NCBI GenBank assembly: GCA_947628545.1
Contig: CANRAJ010000005.1
Span: 1-32,928 of the forward strand
Direction: 5' to 3'
Source of the DNA: an uncultured Bacilli bacterium
GTDB taxonomy: Bacteria > Bacillota_I > Bacilli_A > RF39 > UBA660
DNA: 32,928 bases
Part shown: in pieces, positions 1,970-28,112 of the stretch
Layout of the letters: each line of letters opens with the position of its first letter
How positions within the stretch are numbered: the stretch's first letter is position 1
Notes under the pieces: model-generated
The model's input: the letters and a program-made list of their open reading frames with translations, nothing else
Told to the model about the DNA's origin: nothing
Databases searched by the model: none
Made by a program: the position numbers and the translations under genes

Positions 1970-4096
1970 ATGACTGAATCAATTGATTTTAAGCAGTTAG
2001 AAAAAGAATTAAATAAAAGAGAAAATTATGCAGAAATTAAAAAGGCTTATGAGTTTGCTTTAGAGCAACATCAGGGGATGAAACGGCTAACGGGGGATGA
2101 TTTTATTACCCATCCTTTGGCCGTTGTTAAAATACTAATGGAATTAAATGTCGATGATACCACCATTATCGCGGCGCTTTTGCATGAAACGATGATGAAT
2201 GGGACAGCTACATATGATGTTTTAGAAGAAAACTTTGGGACTGATGTAGCTAAAATCGTCGAATCAATTACCAAAATTAATAATTTAGATTTGCCGGGTA
2301 AAAATGATAATTCGGCGATATATTTAAGAAATATTTTGGTGGGATTAACCGAAGATGTAAGAACGCTTTATATTAAACTTGCCGATCGGTTACATAATAT
2401 GCGTACCTATTGGGCAGTTGATGAAGAAAAAAGAAAAGAAAAAGCCGAAGAAACACTGGATGTTTTAGTGCCTATTGCCCATCGGCTCGGGATTAATTCA
2501 ATAAAAAGTGAACTGGAAAACTTATCTTTATATTACTTAAAACCCGATGTCTATAATGATATCTTAGAGAAACTTAATGATACCGTTTCGAGTTTAAATG
2601 ATTATTTAGATGATATGAAACAAGAATTAATTGATATTCTAACGGAAGCCGGCATTAAGTTTAAAATTAAAGGCCGAGTTAAAAGTGTTTATAGTATCTA
2701 TAATAAATTAAATAATGGGAAAAAATGGGATCAAATTTACGATATTTTGGCCTTGCGGATTTTTGTGGAAAAAGAAAGTGAATGTTATGCTGTCGTGGGT
2801 TTAATCCATGCTCATTTTCGGCCAGTTCCAAACCGTTTTAAAGATTATATTGCCAATCCGAAAGAAAATATGTATCAATCCCTTCATACTACCGTTTTTG
2901 GGGTATCCGATAAAATCTTTGAGGTGCAAATAAGGACTTATGAAATGGATGAAATCGCCGAAAAAGGGATTGCTAGTCACTGGTCTTATAAAGAAAAAGG
3001 GGTTAAAAAGGTTCAAAAGTTGATGGAACAAAAACTAGAATTGTTCCGGAGTATTATTGATACTAATGCCTCAGAAACTGACGATACCTTTAAAGAAGCA
3101 ATTAATCGGAGTATTTTTTCTAAAAATATCTATGTTTATACTCCTAAAGGAGATGTCATGGAATTACCACAAGGAAGTACGCCTATTGATTTTGCGTACC
3201 GCATTCATTCCAAAGTTGGTGATACCATGGTTGGAGCAATCGTCAATGATCAAATGGTTCCGATTAATACCGAATTACAAAATGATGATATCGTTAAAAT
3301 CATGACAAATAGTTCCTCAACGCCAAATATCGATTGGTTAAATATTGTTAAAACTAACCAAGCCCGCGATAAAATTAAGGCCTTCTTTAGTAAAAAAGAT
3401 AAAGAAGAATACATTGCGAAGGGGAAAGATATTTTAGAAAAAGAATTACGGAAACGGAAATTAAGTTTTAATACCATTTTTAGTAATGAAGCCATAAAAA
3501 AAGTTTTACATGATTTAAAGTTTGAAGATATCGATGAATTATATATGGCTTTGGGTTCTTTACGCTTTACCCCAGGTTATGTCATTAATTTAGTCGATAC
3601 TGATAAAGATCGGGTTGAAGATATCTTAATTGAAAAAAGACCCCAACCGATTAAAGTTAATTATAAAAGTGATGTTTATGTCGATGGCTTAGATAACATT
3701 TTAGTTAATATGGCCAAATGTTGTATGCCCGTTAAAGGGGATAAGATCGTTGGTTATATTACCAAGGGTCAAGGGATCACCGTCCATAAAGAAAATTGTC
3801 CTAATGTTAATTTGACGGATGAACGATTAATTAAAGTTACATGGAATGAAAATACAACGAATAATTTTTATACCAATATTTATGTTAAAGTAAACGAAAA
3901 TAAAAATATTATGGCCGAATTAATTACCGAAATAGGTAAAAAAGAGGCCTATGTAAGATCATGTAATACGATTGAAAAAGAAAACTATTTAGTTTATGTT
4001 TTAAATATTCGAATTCGGAATACCGAAATGTTAGAACAAGTCATTAATAGTGTGGCTAAAATGCCGTATGTGGCCTCGGTCAGTCAAAATATTTAA
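1970..4096 (+). CDS. relA: Long RSH (p)ppGpp synthetase/hydrolase, hydrolase motif degenerate
   Basis: About 708 residues with the full Rel layout: HD domain (about residues 20-190), synthetase (about 230-340), TGS (about 390-450), zinc-finger/conserved-Cys region (K-C-C-M-P-V near 586) and a C-terminal ACT domain. The synthetase is intact, with R-V-K-S-V-Y-S-I-Y, Y-D-I-L-A-L-R and R-F-K-D-Y-I-A; the RxKD form is typical of bifunctional Rel enzymes. In the HD domain, T-H-P-L-A-V and A-D-R-L-H-N-M-R are kept, but the HDxxED motif reads H-E-T-M-M-N, so hydrolysis may be weak or lost. I chose ATG at 1970 because AAGGTG (1958-1963) is well spaced for it; the in-frame GTG at 1961 overlaps that site. 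It is followed after 9 bases by dtd, probably in one operon. Confidence 0.93.
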   Translation: MTESIDFKQLEKELNKRENYAEIKKAYEFALEQHQGMKRLTGDDFITHPLAVVKILMELNVDDTTIIAALLHETMMNGTATYDVLEENFGTDVAKIVESITKINNLDLPGKNDNSAIYLRNILVGLTEDVRTLYIKLADRLHNMRTYWAVDEEKRKEKAEETLDVLVPIAHRLGINSIKSELENLSLYYLKPDVYNDILEKLNDTVSSLNDYLDDMKQELIDILTEAGIKFKIKGRVKSVYSIYNKLNNGKKWDQIYDILALRIFVEKESECYAVVGLIHAHFRPVPNRFKDYIANPKENMYQSLHTTVFGVSDKIFEVQIRTYEMDEIAEKGIASHWSYKEKGVKKVQKLMEQKLELFRSIIDTNASETDDTFKEAINRSIFSKNIYVYTPKGDVMELPQGSTPIDFAYRIHSKVGDTMVGAIVNDQMVPINTELQNDDIVKIMTNSSSTPNIDWLNIVKTNQARDKIKAFFSKKDKEEYIAKGKDILEKELRKRKLSFNTIFSNEAIKKVLHDLKFEDIDELYMALGSLRFTPGYVINLVDTDKDRVEDILIEKRPQPIKVNYKSDVYVDGLDNILVNMAKCCMPVKGDKIVGYITKGQGITVHKENCPNVNLTDERLIKVTWNENTTNNFYTNIYVKVNENKNIMAELITEIGKKEAYVRSCNTIEKENYLVYVLNIRIRNTEMLEQVINSVAKMPYVASVSQNI

Positions 4097-4583: not shown

Positions 4584-4790
4584 AGAATTATTTGTTTAAA
4601 GGAGTACTTTTAAAAAGATATTTAGCGAGCTAATGGTTGGTGAAAATTAGTTATATTTTTAAAAGGAAGACATTAAACGGGAAATAAGCGTAGTTCTGCG
4701 TTAAAGAAAAAAGAGCATAGATTCTATGAAGTAAGGTGGTACCGCGAAATATCTTCGTCCTTACAGCGTAGGATCTTTTTTATTTCAAGG
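4584..4790 (+). promoter_or_regulatory. T-box leader, Asp-specific
   Basis: A tRNA-sensing leader that lets transcription into aspS continue when uncharged tRNA-Asp binds. The T-box sequence AAGGTGGTACCGCG is at 4733-4746. Stem I shows the distal GGTTGGTG-type loop (4634-4642). The 3' side of the specifier loop has GAC at 4669-4671, an Asp codon, which fits the downstream gene. The terminator arm (TCCTTAC ... GTAGGA, about 4757-4773) is followed by a T-run at 4775-4781. The start coordinate is estimated from the promoter. Confidence 0.93.
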
Positions 4791-6621: not shown

Positions 6622-7875
6622 ATGATAGCTAAACCAAAAGGAACATATGATTTAATTGGCCTTGATGCTAAATTATACAACTATATTTATAATGTCGTCC
6701 AAGGTTATATGGACAATTACAATTATGAGTTTATCCGAACCCCAATTTTTGAGGCCAGTGAACTATTTCATCGAGGGGTGGGGGAAACGACCGATATTGT
6801 TACAAAAGAGACCTATGATTTTATCGATCGTGGCGAAAGAAATCTTACTTTAAGACCTGAGGGAACCGCCGGCGTTGTGCGCAGTGTCATTGAAAATAAA
6901 TTATATGGTAATCAAAATGGCCCATTAAAATATTATTATTTTGGCACAATGTATCGTTATGAAAGACCACAAGCCGGAAGATATCGGGAATTTAGTCAAA
7001 TGGGCGTTGAGGTATTTAACGCAAATGATCCAATGATTGATGCTGAGGTTATCTCCCTAGGTTATAATTTATTAAAAGAATTAGGCATTGAAAAATTTAC
7101 CGTCCATTTAAATACCTTAGGTGATTTAACTACTCGCCAAAACTATACGGCAGCCTTAAAAAAATATTTAAAACCGCATTTAGCCGAATTGTGTCCGGAT
7201 TGTCAAAAAAGATATGAAACCAATCCTTTACGGATTATTGACTGTAAAGCCGATAAAGATAATGATGTCTTAAAAAATGTGCCGAAGATTAGTGACTACT
7301 TAACGGATGAAAGTAAAGCATTATTTACGAAATTAAAAGAATTATTGACTATTTTAGATATCGACTATGAAATTGATGAAAGAATAGTTCGGGGACTTGA
7401 TTATTATGATTATAATGTTTGGGAATATGTAACTGATGATGCTAACATCTCCCTAGGCGGCGGGGGGCGCTATAATAATTTAGTTAAGACGCTCGATGGC
7501 CCGGATATGCCTGCCGTGGGTTTTGCTTTTGGCATTGATAGGGTTATTACCGAACTTAAAAATATTTTAGGTAGCCAAGAGTTTACCAATAATGTTGATG
7601 TCTATATTATGAGCGTCAATGATGAAGAAAAAATGCAAGCCTTGAGAATTGCTCAAGATTTACGCCTTAATAATGTAATGACGGAAATTAATAGTAATAA
7701 TTTAAGCTTAAAAAGCCAATTTAAGATGGCCGATAGTTTAAAGGCAAAATTTTTAGTTATCCTAAATAGTGATGATTTACAAAAGGGCTTAGTCAATATT
7801 AAAGATAATGTCACCAAAGAAGAAGTAAAAATTGATGAAGGTGAAATCGTCGATTGGATTTTAGGTAATATTTAG
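6622..7875 (+). CDS. hisS: Histidyl-tRNA synthetase
   Basis: 417 residues from ATG 6622, a normal HisRS length. Class II motifs are clear: R-P-E-G-T-A-G (motif 2 region), G-T-M-Y-R-Y-E-R-P-Q-A-G-R-Y-R-E-F, the His-specific V-R-G-L-D-Y-Y (about residue 258), G-G-G-G-R-Y and motif 3 G-F-A-F-G-I-D-R, followed by the C-terminal anticodon-binding domain. I prefer ATG 6622 because GGGAG at 6609-6613 is properly spaced and M-I-A-K-P-K-G-T-Y-D matches the family start; the in-frame GTG at 6604 and ATG at 6607 precede the ribosome-binding site. asnS follows closely in the same transcript. Confidence 0.95.
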   Translation: MIAKPKGTYDLIGLDAKLYNYIYNVVQGYMDNYNYEFIRTPIFEASELFHRGVGETTDIVTKETYDFIDRGERNLTLRPEGTAGVVRSVIENKLYGNQNGPLKYYYFGTMYRYERPQAGRYREFSQMGVEVFNANDPMIDAEVISLGYNLLKELGIEKFTVHLNTLGDLTTRQNYTAALKKYLKPHLAELCPDCQKRYETNPLRIIDCKADKDNDVLKNVPKISDYLTDESKALFTKLKELLTILDIDYEIDERIVRGLDYYDYNVWEYVTDDANISLGGGGRYNNLVKTLDGPDMPAVGFAFGIDRVITELKNILGSQEFTNNVDVYIMSVNDEEKMQALRIAQDLRLNNVMTEINSNNLSLKSQFKMADSLKAKFLVILNSDDLQKGLVNIKDNVTKEEVKIDEGEIVDWILGNI

Positions 7876-16712: not shown

Positions 16713-16718
16713 TAAATT

Positions 16719-16865
16719 GTCTAGAGGATAAGTTTATTATGTATAAAACCGACTAAGATAGAAAATTGGGAATCTAATTGACTGTGGTGTAGAAGACTTT
16801 TCCATTAAGTGAAAAAGGATCCTAAAGCAGTTCATGTGATGCCCACCTGCCGAGTGCGGGTTTTT
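16719..16865 (+). ncRNA. ssrS: Probable 6S RNA
   Basis: A stretch of about 147 bases without a credible reading frame, between a strong promoter and an intrinsic terminator (ACCTGC-CGAGT-GCGGGT plus T-run, 16845-16865). It can fold into a long interrupted rod: GGGAATC (16769-) with GATGCCC, GACTG with CAGTT, then CTTTT with AAAAG, leaving an internal bubble. That is the style of 6S RNA, which mimics an open promoter and sequesters RNA polymerase. Its place directly upstream of tcdA matches the 6S neighbourhood I recall for other Firmicutes. A covariance-model search has not been done. Confidence 0.55.
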
Positions 16866-16917
16866 ATCTAAAATAGACTTACCTTTGGACTTTTTTTATG
16901 TTTAATGAGGTGTTTTT

Positions 16918-20977: not shown

Positions 20978-21250
20978 ATGGAAATAATTGGTGCTTTATT
21001 AATTTCAACTCTAGCCGGACTTTCCACCGTTTTAGGGGGATTAGTCATTCTTTTTAAATTTAAGGAAGAAAATATTACCAAATTTATTACGGCTTCTTTA
21101 GCCTTTTCTTTAAGTATTATGATTGGGATTAGTATTACCGATTTAATTCCTGAATCAACCTACATTTTATTGCAGACTTATGGTTTAACCAAAGGAATTA
21201 TTTTATGTCTTATTTTATTTGTCATAGGTATTATTTTAATAAAATATTAG
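20978..21250 (+). pseudogene. ZIP-family divalent metal transporter, truncated after about 90 residues
   Basis: The start (GGGGTGATGGT then ATG) is normal, and the first residues, L-L-I-S-T-L-A-G-L-S-T-V-L-G-G, followed by F-S-L-S-I-M-I-G-I-S and D-L-I-P-E-S, match the N-terminal two membrane helices of ZIP transporters (usually about 250-270 residues). Only three hydrophobic segments remain before TAG at 21248-21250. Right after this the sequence changes to minus-strand phage genes, and the frame overlaps the end of the first phage gene. I read this as a chromosomal gene cut by insertion or rearrangement, with the rest lying beyond the window or lost. It is not expected to transport. Confidence 0.75.
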
Positions 21251-21464
21251 GCAATAATTCTATAAAACCAGTATCTCCATTAAATAATTCAACTGGGAAG
21301 TCTTCTTTTTCACTTTGATAAACAATGTTGTTTCCCATATCATAGACCGTTAGACGATAAGCATTAACTCGGTCAGAAGTGTTCATTACGAGCGATATTT
21401 CTTCAACTGAATTGGCGTCTATTGATTTGTATGTTGGTTGGATGCTTCGTGGTTGATATATCAT
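21231..21464 (-). CDS. Phage tail-associated protein, N-terminal fragment
   Basis: 77 residues starting M-I-Y-Q-P-R-S-I-Q-P. The region has an Ig/fibronectin-like look (S-V-E-E-I-S-L-V-M-N, A-Y-R-L-T-V-Y-D) and ends shortly after F-N-G-D-T-G. I recall similar openings on much longer phage tail proteins in which this domain is followed by more repeats, so the gene is probably cut at the same junction that cuts the ZIP gene; its last few codons overlap that gene's 3' end. It lies 4 bases downstream of the S74 tail gene in the same direction and has an AGGAGG-type site upstream. Confidence 0.6.
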   Translation of the reverse strand: MIYQPRSIQPTYKSIDANSVEEISLVMNTSDRVNAYRLTVYDMGNNIVYQSEKEDFPVELFNGDTGFIELLPNILLK

Positions 21465-23425: not shown

Positions 23426-23450
23426 AAAAAAAGCAACTACTTTAAGTAGT
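23426..23450 (-). terminator. Intrinsic terminator after the transposase gene
   Basis: ACTACTT/AAGTAGT dyad at 23436-23450, followed on the minus strand by T7 (23426-23432). The transposase stop codon lies within it, so the S74 fibre gene must be read from its own signal or by readthrough. Confidence 0.7.
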
Positions 23451-24968
23451 CACTAAAAATCCTTCTTCTGTTATTTCTATATTCTTGTTATACCAATTTA
23501 ATAATTTAGTCATTCGTCTTCTAATCTCGGACGTCTTTTCAATAGATGATATTAAGAACAGGTTTGGATATTCTTGTTTAATTTGTACTTGGACAAAAGG
23601 TGGGAGAGAGTCATATCGTTCTTTTAATAATTGTTTTCTTCTACGTGCTTTTGCTTCAGGTGAGCGAGGTTTCTTTGGATATTGCCTTGGCACACATATA
23701 TTAACGTCTTTACTTTTTGTAGCATCTTTTAACATATCCATAACATCTTCTACGGTGTTTTCAATTCTATCACGATAATCTTTGTAGCCATTACCATAAG
23801 GCTTTATTCCTATGGCTTTCCGTTCTTCTAGTATATCATCTTGTCTCTTACAGAAATTTGGTTTCGCTTGATAATTCTTTCGCAAGATACCATAGACTGG
23901 TTTATCACTACACATAATATCTTCTAATGTTATGTCTTTAATATCTACATCATCAAATTGTTCTGGCAGTATCATTCTATAATCTTTTAAATCATATGTT
24001 TTATTTCCAAATCTTCCCATACGGCGTATGTCTATAACTTGAGGTGAGAATACACCTTGATATAAAATATCATCGATTGCTTTTTCAAAGTCAGTATGAT
24101 TATATCTAAAATCACTTTCAATTAAGTAACCATAAAGCCATTCTTTTGGTAAGTTTGAATGAGTAGAATAATACATCTTTTTAACAATACCCCAATATCC
24201 TTCTATACCATTTGTTGTATAGCCATTTTCGTTTACTCGTTGATTAATTGAATGGTCTACAGCCTCGTGCTTATATTTGCTATCAGGTTTGTCATAACGC
24301 CTATAAGTTCTAAAATCATCACTAACAATAGTTGAACCCGGCAAGATTAATTTTTCAACAAAACTGTTAATAGCATCAAACGATAGATATCTTCCTTTTT
24401 CATCTGGAATAGATGGATAAGAATAAACTCTTTTTTTAGCACCATCATAAATACCTAAGACGGCAACTTTATCTGATTTATCAAAATCTTTTTTACTGAA
24501 TCTTCCGTGGTTACTTCCACCGGTGAAAACCTCATCAATCTGGATAACACCCGAAAAGGGTTCTAAGTCATAATTGTTCATAGCCGCTTGAATTAATCTA
24601 CGCTTTGTATAAATAGAAGTATTAGACATATGCGTCTCTCTTCTTAACTGAAAATTAGAGATACTTTTTCTTGATACAAATACTTCATAAATTATATGGA
24701 ACCAATTTATAAGAGATGTTTGAGTTGATTCAAACATAGTCCCAACAAATATTGAGAAATCACGTCTACAGTTTCCACACATATAAATCTTAGGGCGGTT
24801 ATGTTTGTAAACATATTTTGAGTTACCACAATATGGACATACAATCTCCCCATTAGGGCATATATGTTCTACAATAAATTCATACACATCATTTTCTGTC
24901 TTAAATCTGTTCATAAATTCTTGAAAATTAGGTGTATTCATTATAACATCATAACCTGTTCTACACAT
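23442..24968 (-). CDS. IS1595 (ISXO2-like) DDE transposase with a long C-terminal extension
   Basis: 508 residues. N-terminal zinc ribbon C-P-Y-C ... C-G-N-C (about residues 45-66), a helix-turn-helix region, then the DDE core: Q-I-D-E-V-F (first Asp), V-S-D-D-F-R-T-Y (second Asp) and N-G-I-E-G-Y-W-G-I-V-K-K (acidic third residue region). IS1595 transposases are usually about 300 residues; here about 190 extra residues follow, rich in basic and aromatic residues (P-K-K-P-R-S-P-E-A-K-A-R-R-R-K). I see no clear terminal inverted repeats around it, so it may be an immobile or phage-borne transposase. The start at 24968 has GAGGAG upstream. Its promoter is overlapped by an RHH-type operator (25012-25041). 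Confidence 0.85.
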   Translation of the reverse strand: MCRTGYDVIMNTPNFQEFMNRFKTENDVYEFIVEHICPNGEIVCPYCGNSKYVYKHNRPKIYMCGNCRRDFSIFVGTMFESTQTSLINWFHIIYEVFVSRKSISNFQLRRETHMSNTSIYTKRRLIQAAMNNYDLEPFSGVIQIDEVFTGGSNHGRFSKKDFDKSDKVAVLGIYDGAKKRVYSYPSIPDEKGRYLSFDAINSFVEKLILPGSTIVSDDFRTYRRYDKPDSKYKHEAVDHSINQRVNENGYTTNGIEGYWGIVKKMYYSTHSNLPKEWLYGYLIESDFRYNHTDFEKAIDDILYQGVFSPQVIDIRRMGRFGNKTYDLKDYRMILPEQFDDVDIKDITLEDIMCSDKPVYGILRKNYQAKPNFCKRQDDILEERKAIGIKPYGNGYKDYRDRIENTVEDVMDMLKDATKSKDVNICVPRQYPKKPRSPEAKARRRKQLLKERYDSLPPFVQVQIKQEYPNLFLISSIEKTSEIRRRMTKLLNWYNKNIEITEEGFLVTT

Positions 24969-25011
24969 TTTAAATCACTCCTCTGACCCCTTTTTTCGGA
25001 AGTCGAGTGCT

Positions 25012-25041
25012 AATATAACACACTACGTACGTAGTTGTCAA
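25012..25041 (-). promoter_or_regulatory. Transposase promoter with operator in the spacer
   Basis: Reading the minus strand: TTGACA (25041-25036), an 18-bp spacer and TATATT (25017-25012). The spacer holds the perfect 14-bp palindrome ACTACGTACGTAGT (25022-25035). A repressor bound there would block RNA polymerase. The sequence ACTACGTACGT recurs at the RHH gene promoter. Confidence 0.8.
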
Positions 25042-25049
25042 GAAAAAAT

Positions 25050-25073
25050 TGCAAATTTTTTTAATTTTTTGCA
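25050..25073 (-). terminator. Weak terminator after the RHH gene
   Basis: TGCAAA (25050-25055) and TTTGCA (25068-25073) form a 6-bp stem with an A/T loop, followed on the minus strand by ATTTTTT. It separates the RHH transcript from the transposase promoter just downstream. Confidence 0.45.
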
Positions 25074-25080
25074 TTTTCCT

Positions 25081-25266
25081 TTATTTTTCGGGCGTTTCGT
25101 CCTTTAATTTTTTCATAGCCCAACGAACAAATTCGACTTTTTTAAGACCTTTTTTTTGGAGAAGGGCATCTAATTCTTCCTTCTCATCTTTCTTCAAATC
25201 GACTTTGAATTGAGACCTATTTTCTTTCATATATTCTATATCATACTTCGCTTTATCAAACGCCAT
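25081..25266 (-). CDS. Ribbon-helix-helix DNA-binding protein (CopG/Arc type)
   Basis: 61 residues. A short basic N-terminus leads to a beta strand S-Q-F-K-V-D-L, then helix 1 (K-D-E-K-E-E-L-D-A-L-L-Q-K-K-G) and helix 2 (K-V-E-F-V-R-W-A-M-K-K-L), the RHH fold; such proteins bind DNA as dimers through the paired strands. GAGGTGAG precedes the ATG at 25266. Its promoter and that of the downstream transposase both carry ACTACGTACGT between -35 and -10. The simplest reading is a repressor that controls itself and the transposase. An antitoxin role was considered, but no toxin gene is next to it. Confidence 0.8.
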   Translation of the reverse strand: MAFDKAKYDIEYMKENRSQFKVDLKKDEKEELDALLQKKGLKKVEFVRWAMKKLKDETPEK

Positions 25267-25290
25267 ATTTTGTACTCACCTCATAATTGA

Positions 25291-25319
25291 ATTATAGCAT
25301 ATAACTACGTACGTTACAA
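25291..25319 (-). promoter_or_regulatory. RHH gene promoter with operator in the spacer
   Basis: Minus strand: TTGTAA (25319-25314), a 17-bp spacer ending in TGC (extended -10), and TATAAT (25296-25291). ACTACGTACGT occupies 25304-25314 (plus-strand reading), in the same position relative to the promoter as at the transposase gene. Confidence 0.8.
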
Positions 25320-25700
25320 TAGAATTTTAGTCGGCGTTGTAAACCTTTAACAAAATGGACTAACGTCCGCCACTACAAAAACAAGACACACACCCTCATC
25401 GCAGGTAGCGTTGCCCCACCAAAAGGGCATAAGCGTAACCTGCGTACTGTCAAAAGGGCATTATACTAATTTTTTTCTTAGTGGCTTTTTAATCATACGT
25501 CCCCCATAAAAAAAGAATGTTTTTAACATACATTCTTCTTCAAAAAGAGAGTTTCTAACAAAAATACTTTATGTGACATAAATTATCAAATTATGGGTCA
25601 TAAAACTAAAAATCATCACTCATAAAACGAGTGCGGGCGACCCATATTATTGTTATTTTTATTCTCCTATTTCTATTCCTATTGTTATTGTTATGTCAAA
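25320..25700. other. Gene-free stretch with several dyads
   Basis: No reading frame with a credible start is seen. It holds a long imperfect stem (GCAGGT 25401-25406 with ACCTGC 25438-25443, and inner GCCC 25413-25416 with GGGC 25425-25428), two direct copies of CAAAAGGGCAT (25419-25430 and 25453-25463 region), a terminator (25506-25537), and a nested pair of inverted repeats: ATGGGTC (25593-25599) with GACCCAT (25639-25645), enclosing CACTC (25617-25621) with GAGTG (25629-25633). It lies directly downstream of the replication gene, so an origin or packaging element is possible; this is inference. Confidence 0.5.
25506..25537 (-). terminator. Terminator downstream of the replication gene
   Basis: AAGAATGT (25513-25520) pairs with ACATTCTT (25530-25537), followed on the minus strand by T-runs (A-run at 25508-25514 on the plus strand). 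Confidence 0.7.
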
Positions 25701-26390
25701 TCAGAACGGTAATTCGTCATCATCGTCATCATCATCGTCATCATAACGCTTAACCGATTCTTCTTCTTGTTCTTCTTTTTCTTCTAATCCATTACCGACA
25801 TCCGGATTTTTATAGAACACACCTTCTTTATCAAAATGCCCAAAGTTAAAGTGACGCATTGAGTTCTCAGGATATGCCATACCTACATAATAGTAGGCAC
25901 CTTCATAAAAATAATAATCGTTTAACATATCTTGATTATTCAACAATTCCCTCATCTTTTTCTTAGCGTAGAGCACTTCTTGACGGTTGTCTAAAATCCC
26001 TAAACTATAAAAATACATATCTTTTAAAAGTTCCATATCATCAACTTTCTTACCCAAATTATCATATAACTTAGTAAGAGCAGAACCTTTACTTATTACG
26101 CCGTATTTTAGGTAGTCTAGGATGGCGATTTCGTTGCTTTTGTCCGAATATTTAATAACGCCAAATTTGTTCTCTAAGCGGTCAAATGCCACGTTAAAAC
26201 GGTCTTCTGGCATATTTAATTCGGTCATCATCATCTTCTTAGTTAATTGGTAAATAGCGTGTTGTTGGAAGTGTCTGTTGGTAATCAAGTATATATATAA
26301 GATTTTATCATCTAAGGTGTATTCTTCATTAACATCAGGTCTTATCCAAAATTCGCTATACACAGGTCTACTAAGAGCGGTTGCTGCCAT
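25701..26390 (-). CDS. Phage replication initiator/DnaD-like winged-helix protein with SSB-like acidic tail
   Basis: 229 residues from ATG 26390 (GAGGTGAG upstream). An upstream in-frame start at 26471 would lie on the promoter itself. The N-terminus (P-V-Y-S-E-F-W, E-Y-T-L-D-D-K-I-L-Y-I-Y-L-I-T-N) and the later R-L-E-N-K-F-G-V-I-K-Y match the winged-helix domain of phage replisome organiser/DnaD-type proteins that load helicase at the phage origin. The C-terminus is Glu-rich, then nine Asp, then E-L-P-F: the acidic tip ending in P-F seen on SSB proteins, which recruits replication and repair enzymes. No OB fold is visible, so it is not SSB itself. The Asp run is encoded by GAT/GAC repeats. 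Confidence 0.7.
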   Translation of the reverse strand: MAATALSRPVYSEFWIRPDVNEEYTLDDKILYIYLITNRHFQQHAIYQLTKKMMMTELNMPEDRFNVAFDRLENKFGVIKYSDKSNEIAILDYLKYGVISKGSALTKLYDNLGKKVDDMELLKDMYFYSLGILDNRQEVLYAKKKMRELLNNQDMLNDYYFYEGAYYYVGMAYPENSMRHFNFGHFDKEGVFYKNPDVGNGLEEKEEQEEESVKRYDDDDDDDDDELPF

Positions 26391-26469
26391 ATTTTTTCTC
26401 ACCTCACAATCTTTTATTAATTGATTGTTTTGGTACCAAAACTTGGGATTTCTCCCTGTCGACATTCGC

Positions 26470-27821: not shown

Positions 27822-28112
27822 ATGTATAATGAAGATAACAAAAAAGAATTATTTCAATTAATAGGTAAGAATATCAATTATTATCGTTATCATTGTAATA
27901 ATACTAAATTAATGAATGAGAAAGGCTTTGTAACAATAGAGAAACTTGCTGAAAAGATAGATAGTAGTCCTAATATGTTATATAACCTTACTGCTAAGAA
28001 TGTGAATCAAGGTGTGTCTATTGTTTTCATTGATAAAATTGCTAGGGCTTTAGATATATCGTTGTATTGTTTCTTTCTAAAAGAACCCATACAAAATCCA
28101 CCAAGATATTAG
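27822..28112 (+). CDS. Cro/CI-type helix-turn-helix regulator
   Basis: 96 residues, the only plus-strand gene in the phage region. The helix-turn-helix runs from about residue 37 (F-V-T-I-E-K-L-A-E-K-I-D-S-S-P-N-M-L-Y-N-L), followed by F-I-D-K-I-A-R-A-L-D-I-S-L, the usual XRE pattern. A strong AAAGGAGG site lies before the ATG. It is divergent from the early-type minus-strand genes and ends in a perfect terminator. A phage repressor role is likely from its position, though a larger CI-type oligomerisation domain is absent. Confidence 0.8.
   Translation: MYNEDNKKELFQLIGKNINYYRYHCNNTKLMNEKGFVTIEKLAEKIDSSPNMLYNLTAKNVNQGVSIVFIDKIARALDISLYCFFLKEPIQNPPRY

Follow-up and report, generated by a model that had tools for sequence, protein, structure and literature searches.

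How is a transposase gene carried on phage DNA kept quiet, and is the small ribbon-helix-helix (RHH) gene next to it involved? This question is raised by the window analysed here, the whole stretch of 32,928 nucleotides that represents contig C5 of a 1.10-Mb (1,102,131-base), 104-contig genome. An earlier note on this DNA had proposed that the RHH protein represses both its own gene and the transposase gene via a single operator sequence present in both promoters, and from the sequence comparisons described below we put the probability that the transposase has an autoregulated repressor in the RHH protein at roughly 0.85.

The phage-derived segment, its RHH gene and two promoters

Host DNA occupies bases 1 to approximately 21,247 of the window, and contains two RNA features matched in Rfam, a 6S RNA gene (16715-16895) and, ahead of the first aminoacyl-tRNA synthetase gene, a T-box leader (4588-4765). 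From there a phage-derived segment continues to the contig end, with tail fibre genes, an XRE gene, a DnaD-like gene, the RHH gene, the transposase gene and an S74 tail fibre gene, largely on the minus strand. The segment interrupts a ZIP-transporter gene which is whole in genomes of the same genus, and the alignment of the window with an intact homologue of 254 aa ends at residue 90; the remainder of the ZIP gene is absent from the window's assembly, and the second end of the segment is missing. The features relevant to the question are:

21240..21255, no strand: left junction of the phage-derived segment, inside the host ZIP-transporter gene (ORF 20978-21250)
23442..24968, minus strand: IS1595-type transposase, 508 aa, with a C-terminal extension of about 200 aa (Pfam DDE_Tnp_IS1595 5e-18, Zn_ribbon_IS1595 9e-7)
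25012..25041, minus strand: transposase promoter TTGACA-(18)-TATATT, 11/12 consensus matches, conserved in homologues
25022..25035, no strand: predicted operator O-T, perfect 14-bp palindrome ACTACGTACGTAGT in the -35/-10 spacer (pattern search)
25081..25266, minus strand: RHH gene, 61 aa, beta strand SQFKVDL, with K21 as predicted core-reading residue (ORF list; PHROG transcriptional repressor E 2.7e-4)
25291..25319, minus strand: RHH promoter TTGTAA-(17)-TATAAT, 10/12 consensus matches
25303..25314, no strand: predicted operator O-R, a partial copy reading ACGTACGTAGTT on the minus strand (pattern search, inverted-repeat search)
25701..26390, minus strand: DnaD-like replication gene (PHROG DnaD-like helicase loader E 2.5e-20; alignment)
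27822-28112, plus strand: XRE-type gene (HTH_26 4.4e-6)

The assignment of the 61-aa protein to the RHH proteins is based on its family profile, for which CopG is the top solved-structure match (E 0.08) and in which two members match Pfam RHH_1 (best E 4.6e-5), together with the PHROG match and a moderate AF2 model; the window protein on its own gave no Pfam RHH match. The AF2 model has helices at residues 26-39 and 43-57 following an extended stretch at 21-25, and this order of a beta strand and two helices is also found in the CopG profile alignment and in the two RHH_1 matches. Foldseek matches were weak (E 7-10), yet all are RHH proteins. Thr6 of CopG is a base-contacting residue, and in the profile alignment it is aligned with strand residue 4 of the RHH family.

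Written out, the two promoters are TTGACA-ACTACGTACGTAGTGTGT-TATATT for the transposase and TTGTAA-CGTACGTAGTTATATGC-TATAAT for the RHH gene, and the sequence that the earlier note had seen in both is present as described. Exact matches to ACTACGTACGT were found at 25022-25032 (plus) and 25025-25035 (minus), together making up the palindrome ACTACGTACGTAGT, which is indeed perfect over 14 bp and located between the -35 and -10 boxes of the transposase promoter, and at 25304-25314 (plus) in the RHH gene's own promoter, where O-R and the -35 hexamer have the hexamer's last base in common. The RHH gene (25266-25081) is positioned between the two sites, and 25025-25036 and 25303-25314 form a 12-bp inverted repeat with 100% complementarity. 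This is far above chance: base composition predicts about 0.01 occurrences of ACTACGTACGT and 0.0002 of the 14-mer per window, ACGTACGT has two occurrences vs 0.15 in shuffles, and neither a further copy of ACTACGTACGT nor any match to a reversed control pattern was found in the 1,102,131-base genome.

The two promoters are the top two of eight promoter-like sites in the region (3.5 in shuffles), and an equally long palindrome inside a promoter spacer was seen in 1/100 shuffles of the RHH region. As a control, phage promoters with the same hexamers were collected with a bare promoter-signature scan, a signature which is unspecific by itself; a spacer palindrome of at least 10 bp was present in 0/80 others, and the sole case among the 81 (L070) is an RHH operon of the window RHH's own family.

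Two other stretches of non-coding DNA were noted near these promoters. The DnaD-like gene leader contains a 16-bp palindrome, GTTTTGGTACCAAAAC (26427-26442), which was a candidate for a third operator but was rejected, being downstream of the -10 box of that gene and not conserved. Upstream of the RHH gene, window positions 25340-25450 are conserved with positions 3340-3460 of the homologous locus L007, reading CAGGT..ACGCTTATGCCCTTTT..GGGCAACGCTACCTG and then GTGGCGGAC, and containing inverted repeats.

Homologous pairs and the wider RHH family

Relatives of the transposase are rare, and were found in two further genomes (G018 and G094, from well over a thousand genome look-ups) and four IMG/VR contigs, the closest coming from two rabbit-gut MAGs. 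Single-sequence transposase scans of viral and genome contigs gave nothing, the relatives emerging with an alignment query, and annotated phages and plasmids contained remote IS1595 relatives only and no RHH relative. Every transposase relative is adjoined by an RHH relative (at a distance of about 2.3 kb in L010), and in all pairs the upstream neighbour of the RHH gene is the DnaD-like gene. The six distinct pairs have the following promoters, with the longest stretch shared within the pair:

Window: transposase TTGACAACTACGTACGTAGTGTGTTATATT, RHH TTGTAACGTACGTAGTTATATGCTATAAT, 12 bases
L009: transposase TTGACAAGTAGTACCCCGTGTGATATAAT, RHH TTGCATAGTACCCCGTTATGTGTTACAAT, 11 bases
L010: transposase TTGACACTGTGTACACAGTGTGATATAAT, RHH TTGACAGTGTACACAGTTAATGTTATAAT, 11 bases
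L011: transposase TTGACAAGGGCTAGCCCTTATGCTATACT, RHH TTGACTAGCCCTTGTGTTTGTGTTAGAAT, 9 bases
L005: transposase TTGACAATGCGTACGCAGTGTGATATAAT, RHH TTGACTGAATACGTAGTGTATGCTATATT, 5 bases
L007/L008: transposase TTGACAACTACCTAGGTAGTGTGTTATTGT, RHH (L007) TTGTCAAAATTATTGGTTAGTGATATAAT, 5 bases

The spacer of the transposase promoter contains a perfect palindrome of 10-18 bp in 5/6 pairs and an imperfect one in the sixth (L009). Its sequence varies among the pairs, and the partner RHH promoter usually has the matching version, as in L010 (ACACTGTGTACACAGTGT and GTGTACACAGT) despite the distance between the genes; the shared stretches of the true pairs sum to 53 bases vs a mean of 33.7, a value equalled by 2 of 720 re-pairings. 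The sharing of the operator by homologous pairs had been set as a test in the earlier note, and it was seen with 9-12 identical bases in the window, L009, L010 and L011, and as a half-site common to both promoters in L005, and was lacking in L007/L008, where the RHH promoter is without a clear operator. The proposed circuit is thus supported for most pairs, and with respect to the transposase promoter for all six, with L007/L008 as the exception for self-repression. In every pair the site in the transposase promoter is more complete than, or equal to, that in the RHH promoter.

Some of these loci have additional features. In L010 a second promoter, TTGACACTATATACCTAGTGTGCTATACT (6829-6858), with a degenerate palindrome, is located directly behind the RHH gene, and drives a 133-aa ORF at the usual transposase position. 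The L009 and L011 phages contain reverse transcriptase genes (186-1376, RVT_1 4.9e-12, and 1977-3209, respectively), possibly part of a diversity-generating retroelement, of which the tail-fibre paralogues in the window could be targets. In L007/L008 the DnaD-like gene is separated from the RHH gene by an array of iteron-like repeats of 11 bp, such as ACGTGAGCGTA and ACGTGTCCGTA (L007 3440-3590), which is possibly the phage origin.

A search with the RHH alignment gave 12 further relatives, none of them seen beside an IS1595-type transposase. For these, operators were taken from an automatic scan for the longest spacer palindrome near each RHH relative:

L181: strand VQFNVDL, operator ACTACCTAGGTAGT
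L184: strand KQFNTDL, operator ACTACCTAGGTAGT
L191: strand KQLNVDI, operator ATTATCTAGATAAT
L187: strand SQFKAYL, operator ACATATAGTACTATATGT
L185: strand KQFKVDM, operator TAGTACTA
L188 and L190: strand KIFKADL, operator ACCGTACGGT, divergent promoters
L182: strand KTFRVEL, operator ACTTTGTACAAAGT
L180: strand KSFQVDL, operator ACTACCATGGTAGT
L070: strand KQFNVDL, operator ACACTACCTAGGTAGTGT (from the promoter-pattern scan)

The operator core follows residue 4 of the strand heptamer in 14/14 loci, with GTAC for K or R, CTAG for N or T and CATG for Q. The mutual information of residue 4 and core is 1.30 vs 0.43 (p ~0.0004, which is optimistic because the loci are partly related), and the other six positions are not significant; it is by this co-variation only that the strand residues are predicted to read the operator. 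Three loci were left out of the test: L183 and L189 have S at residue 4 and lack a perfect palindrome, with an imperfect site in L183 and no site in L189, and the imperfect L009 site does include GTAC. When 2.9 million viral contigs were scanned for TTGACACTACNNNNGTAGTNTGNTA with the core left free, there were three matches, each having CTAG as its core and each located in a QFNVDL RHH operon, which agrees with the rule and is not fully independent, since the matches are L070 again and two relatives of L181.

The candidate ligand of the palindrome

The palindrome is present at the transposase promoter every time, and autorepression is found in some insertion-sequence transposases, which bind element ends overlapping their own promoters, so that it could be a site for the transposase, with the RHH gene as a bystander. 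We consider this very improbable, as the same palindromes are found at RHH operons without a nearby transposase (L070, L181, L184, L187 and L200). In L180 the RHH gene is directly followed by the operator-promoter stretch TTGACACTACCATGGTAGTATGATATAAT, and then by an ORF of 66 aa and the gene for a tyrosine integrase (Phage_integrase 3e-15), which is the layout of the window with another recombinase. Similarly, there is hardly any likelihood that the phage XRE repressor uses the palindrome as its operator in ordinary lysogeny control: XRE repressors do bind palindromes and an XRE-type gene is located 2.5 kb away, but there is no copy of the site near that gene, and the core follows the RHH protein also at loci where the fetched neighbourhood has no XRE gene. 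Because the core follows the RHH strand residue, both the transposase and the XRE protein were rejected as ligand, pointing to the RHH protein.

A broader role of the RHH protein, in which it regulates the element in general (its lysogeny or copy number) through many targets and the transposase is one of several, is unlikely in our judgement, albeit considerably less so than either other ligand. The RHH relatives in operons without a transposase and the further TTGACA promoter behind the L010 RHH gene are in its favour, whereas the two promoters are the only operator sites in the window and its genome, in an assembly which lacks part of the phage.

With the RHH protein as autoregulated repressor, a dimer would insert its two-stranded sheet into the major groove over the palindrome centre, where strand residue 21 would read the four central bases, and RNA polymerase would be kept out by binding within the -35/-10 spacer. 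As the palindrome is complete in the transposase promoter and partial in the RHH promoter, we infer that the transposase gene would be shut off at a lower level of RHH protein than the RHH gene itself, so that a small, steady pool of repressor may be maintained with the transposase nearly silent. When this pool is missing, as upon new entry into a cell, or is diluted, production of the transposase would begin and the DNA could insert.

The transposase and its insertions

The zinc ribbon, the ISXO2-like DDE domain and the acidic residues of the transposase are intact, with matches above the curated cut-offs for the IS1595 family (NCBIfam transpos_IS1595 1.9e-30), D145, D217 and E256 invariant, and DDE/RNase H-like fold matches. 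Two homologous segments have direct repeats at their ends, a 17.1-kb segment of G811 (L040-L043, 8229-25384) in a LysR-type gene (CTGACTTT) and a 9.7-kb segment of G094 (L047-L049, G094:C4 35786-45487) in a prepilin-like gene (AAAGATGA). The G094 genome also contains an uninterrupted paralogue (98-99% protein identity), and this empty site means that the duplication is exactly 8 bp. Duplications of 8 bp are the norm for IS1595, and their exact presence at two transposase-bearing segments suggests that the transposase is probably active. Both segments are partial, with ends that cut through phage genes and vary between segments, and no convincing terminal inverted repeats were found at these ends or near the window's transposase gene.

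No integrase was noticed inside either segment, the integrases of the G811 contig being outside it. Together with the insertions in different host genes and the exact 8-bp duplications, this allows the tentative and rather doubtful suggestion that these phages integrate by an IS1595-type DDE transposase, silenced by the RHH protein, instead of by a site-specific integrase, as a transposing line unrelated to Mu. A Mu-like transposable phage, with a MuA-type transposase and MuB, is not what was found: the transposase is of the IS1595 type, and no MuB-like protein was noticed when the element ORF lists were read by eye.

If correct, there may be phages that move by means of an IS1595-type transposase, and the RHH gene and its operator would be a compact, portable switch for recombinase silence, present upstream of both a transposase and a tyrosine integrase. 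With the one-residue rule, RHH operator specificity would become predictable in genomes.

Both CopG of plasmid pMV158 and Arc of phage P22 are small proteins with one beta strand and two helices that bind a symmetric operator in a promoter, and CopG represses itself. The window RHH protein shares the strand and two-helix form, CopG being the best match of its family profile, but CopG controls plasmid replication and Arc controls a phage regulator, whereas the window RHH protein is paired with a transposase and its operator is common to two promoters. With IS1595 insertion sequences the transposase has the zinc ribbon, DDE domain and 8-bp target duplications in common, and it differs in the C-terminal extension of about 200 aa, in the lack of detected terminal inverted repeats, and in being located in a phage cluster with a repressor gene. 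As with the Mu c repressor and MuA, an element-encoded repressor would silence the transposase gene, but repressor and transposase are unrelated to those of Mu, the duplications are 8 bp vs 5 bp, and the segments are partial rather than a complete transposing phage. The earlier note had remarked that dedicated repressors are not a usual component of IS1595 elements, and in the literature searched (not exhaustively) an IS1595 element with a dedicated repressor is without precedent, whereas RHH repressors beside transposons are already known from cyanobacterial CAST, where two RHH proteins of 53-72 aa, Arc_1 and Arc_2, are encoded beside the transposition genes, and the MerR-type CvkR, the sole regulator tested for repression there, represses tnsB and cas12k (PMC9938897). 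The CAST regulators thus resemble the window RHH protein as small, element-encoded regulators next to transposition genes; CAST is Tn7-like, whereas here the transposase is of the IS1595 type, the RHH family is a different one, and the operator is located in the promoter spacer of both genes.
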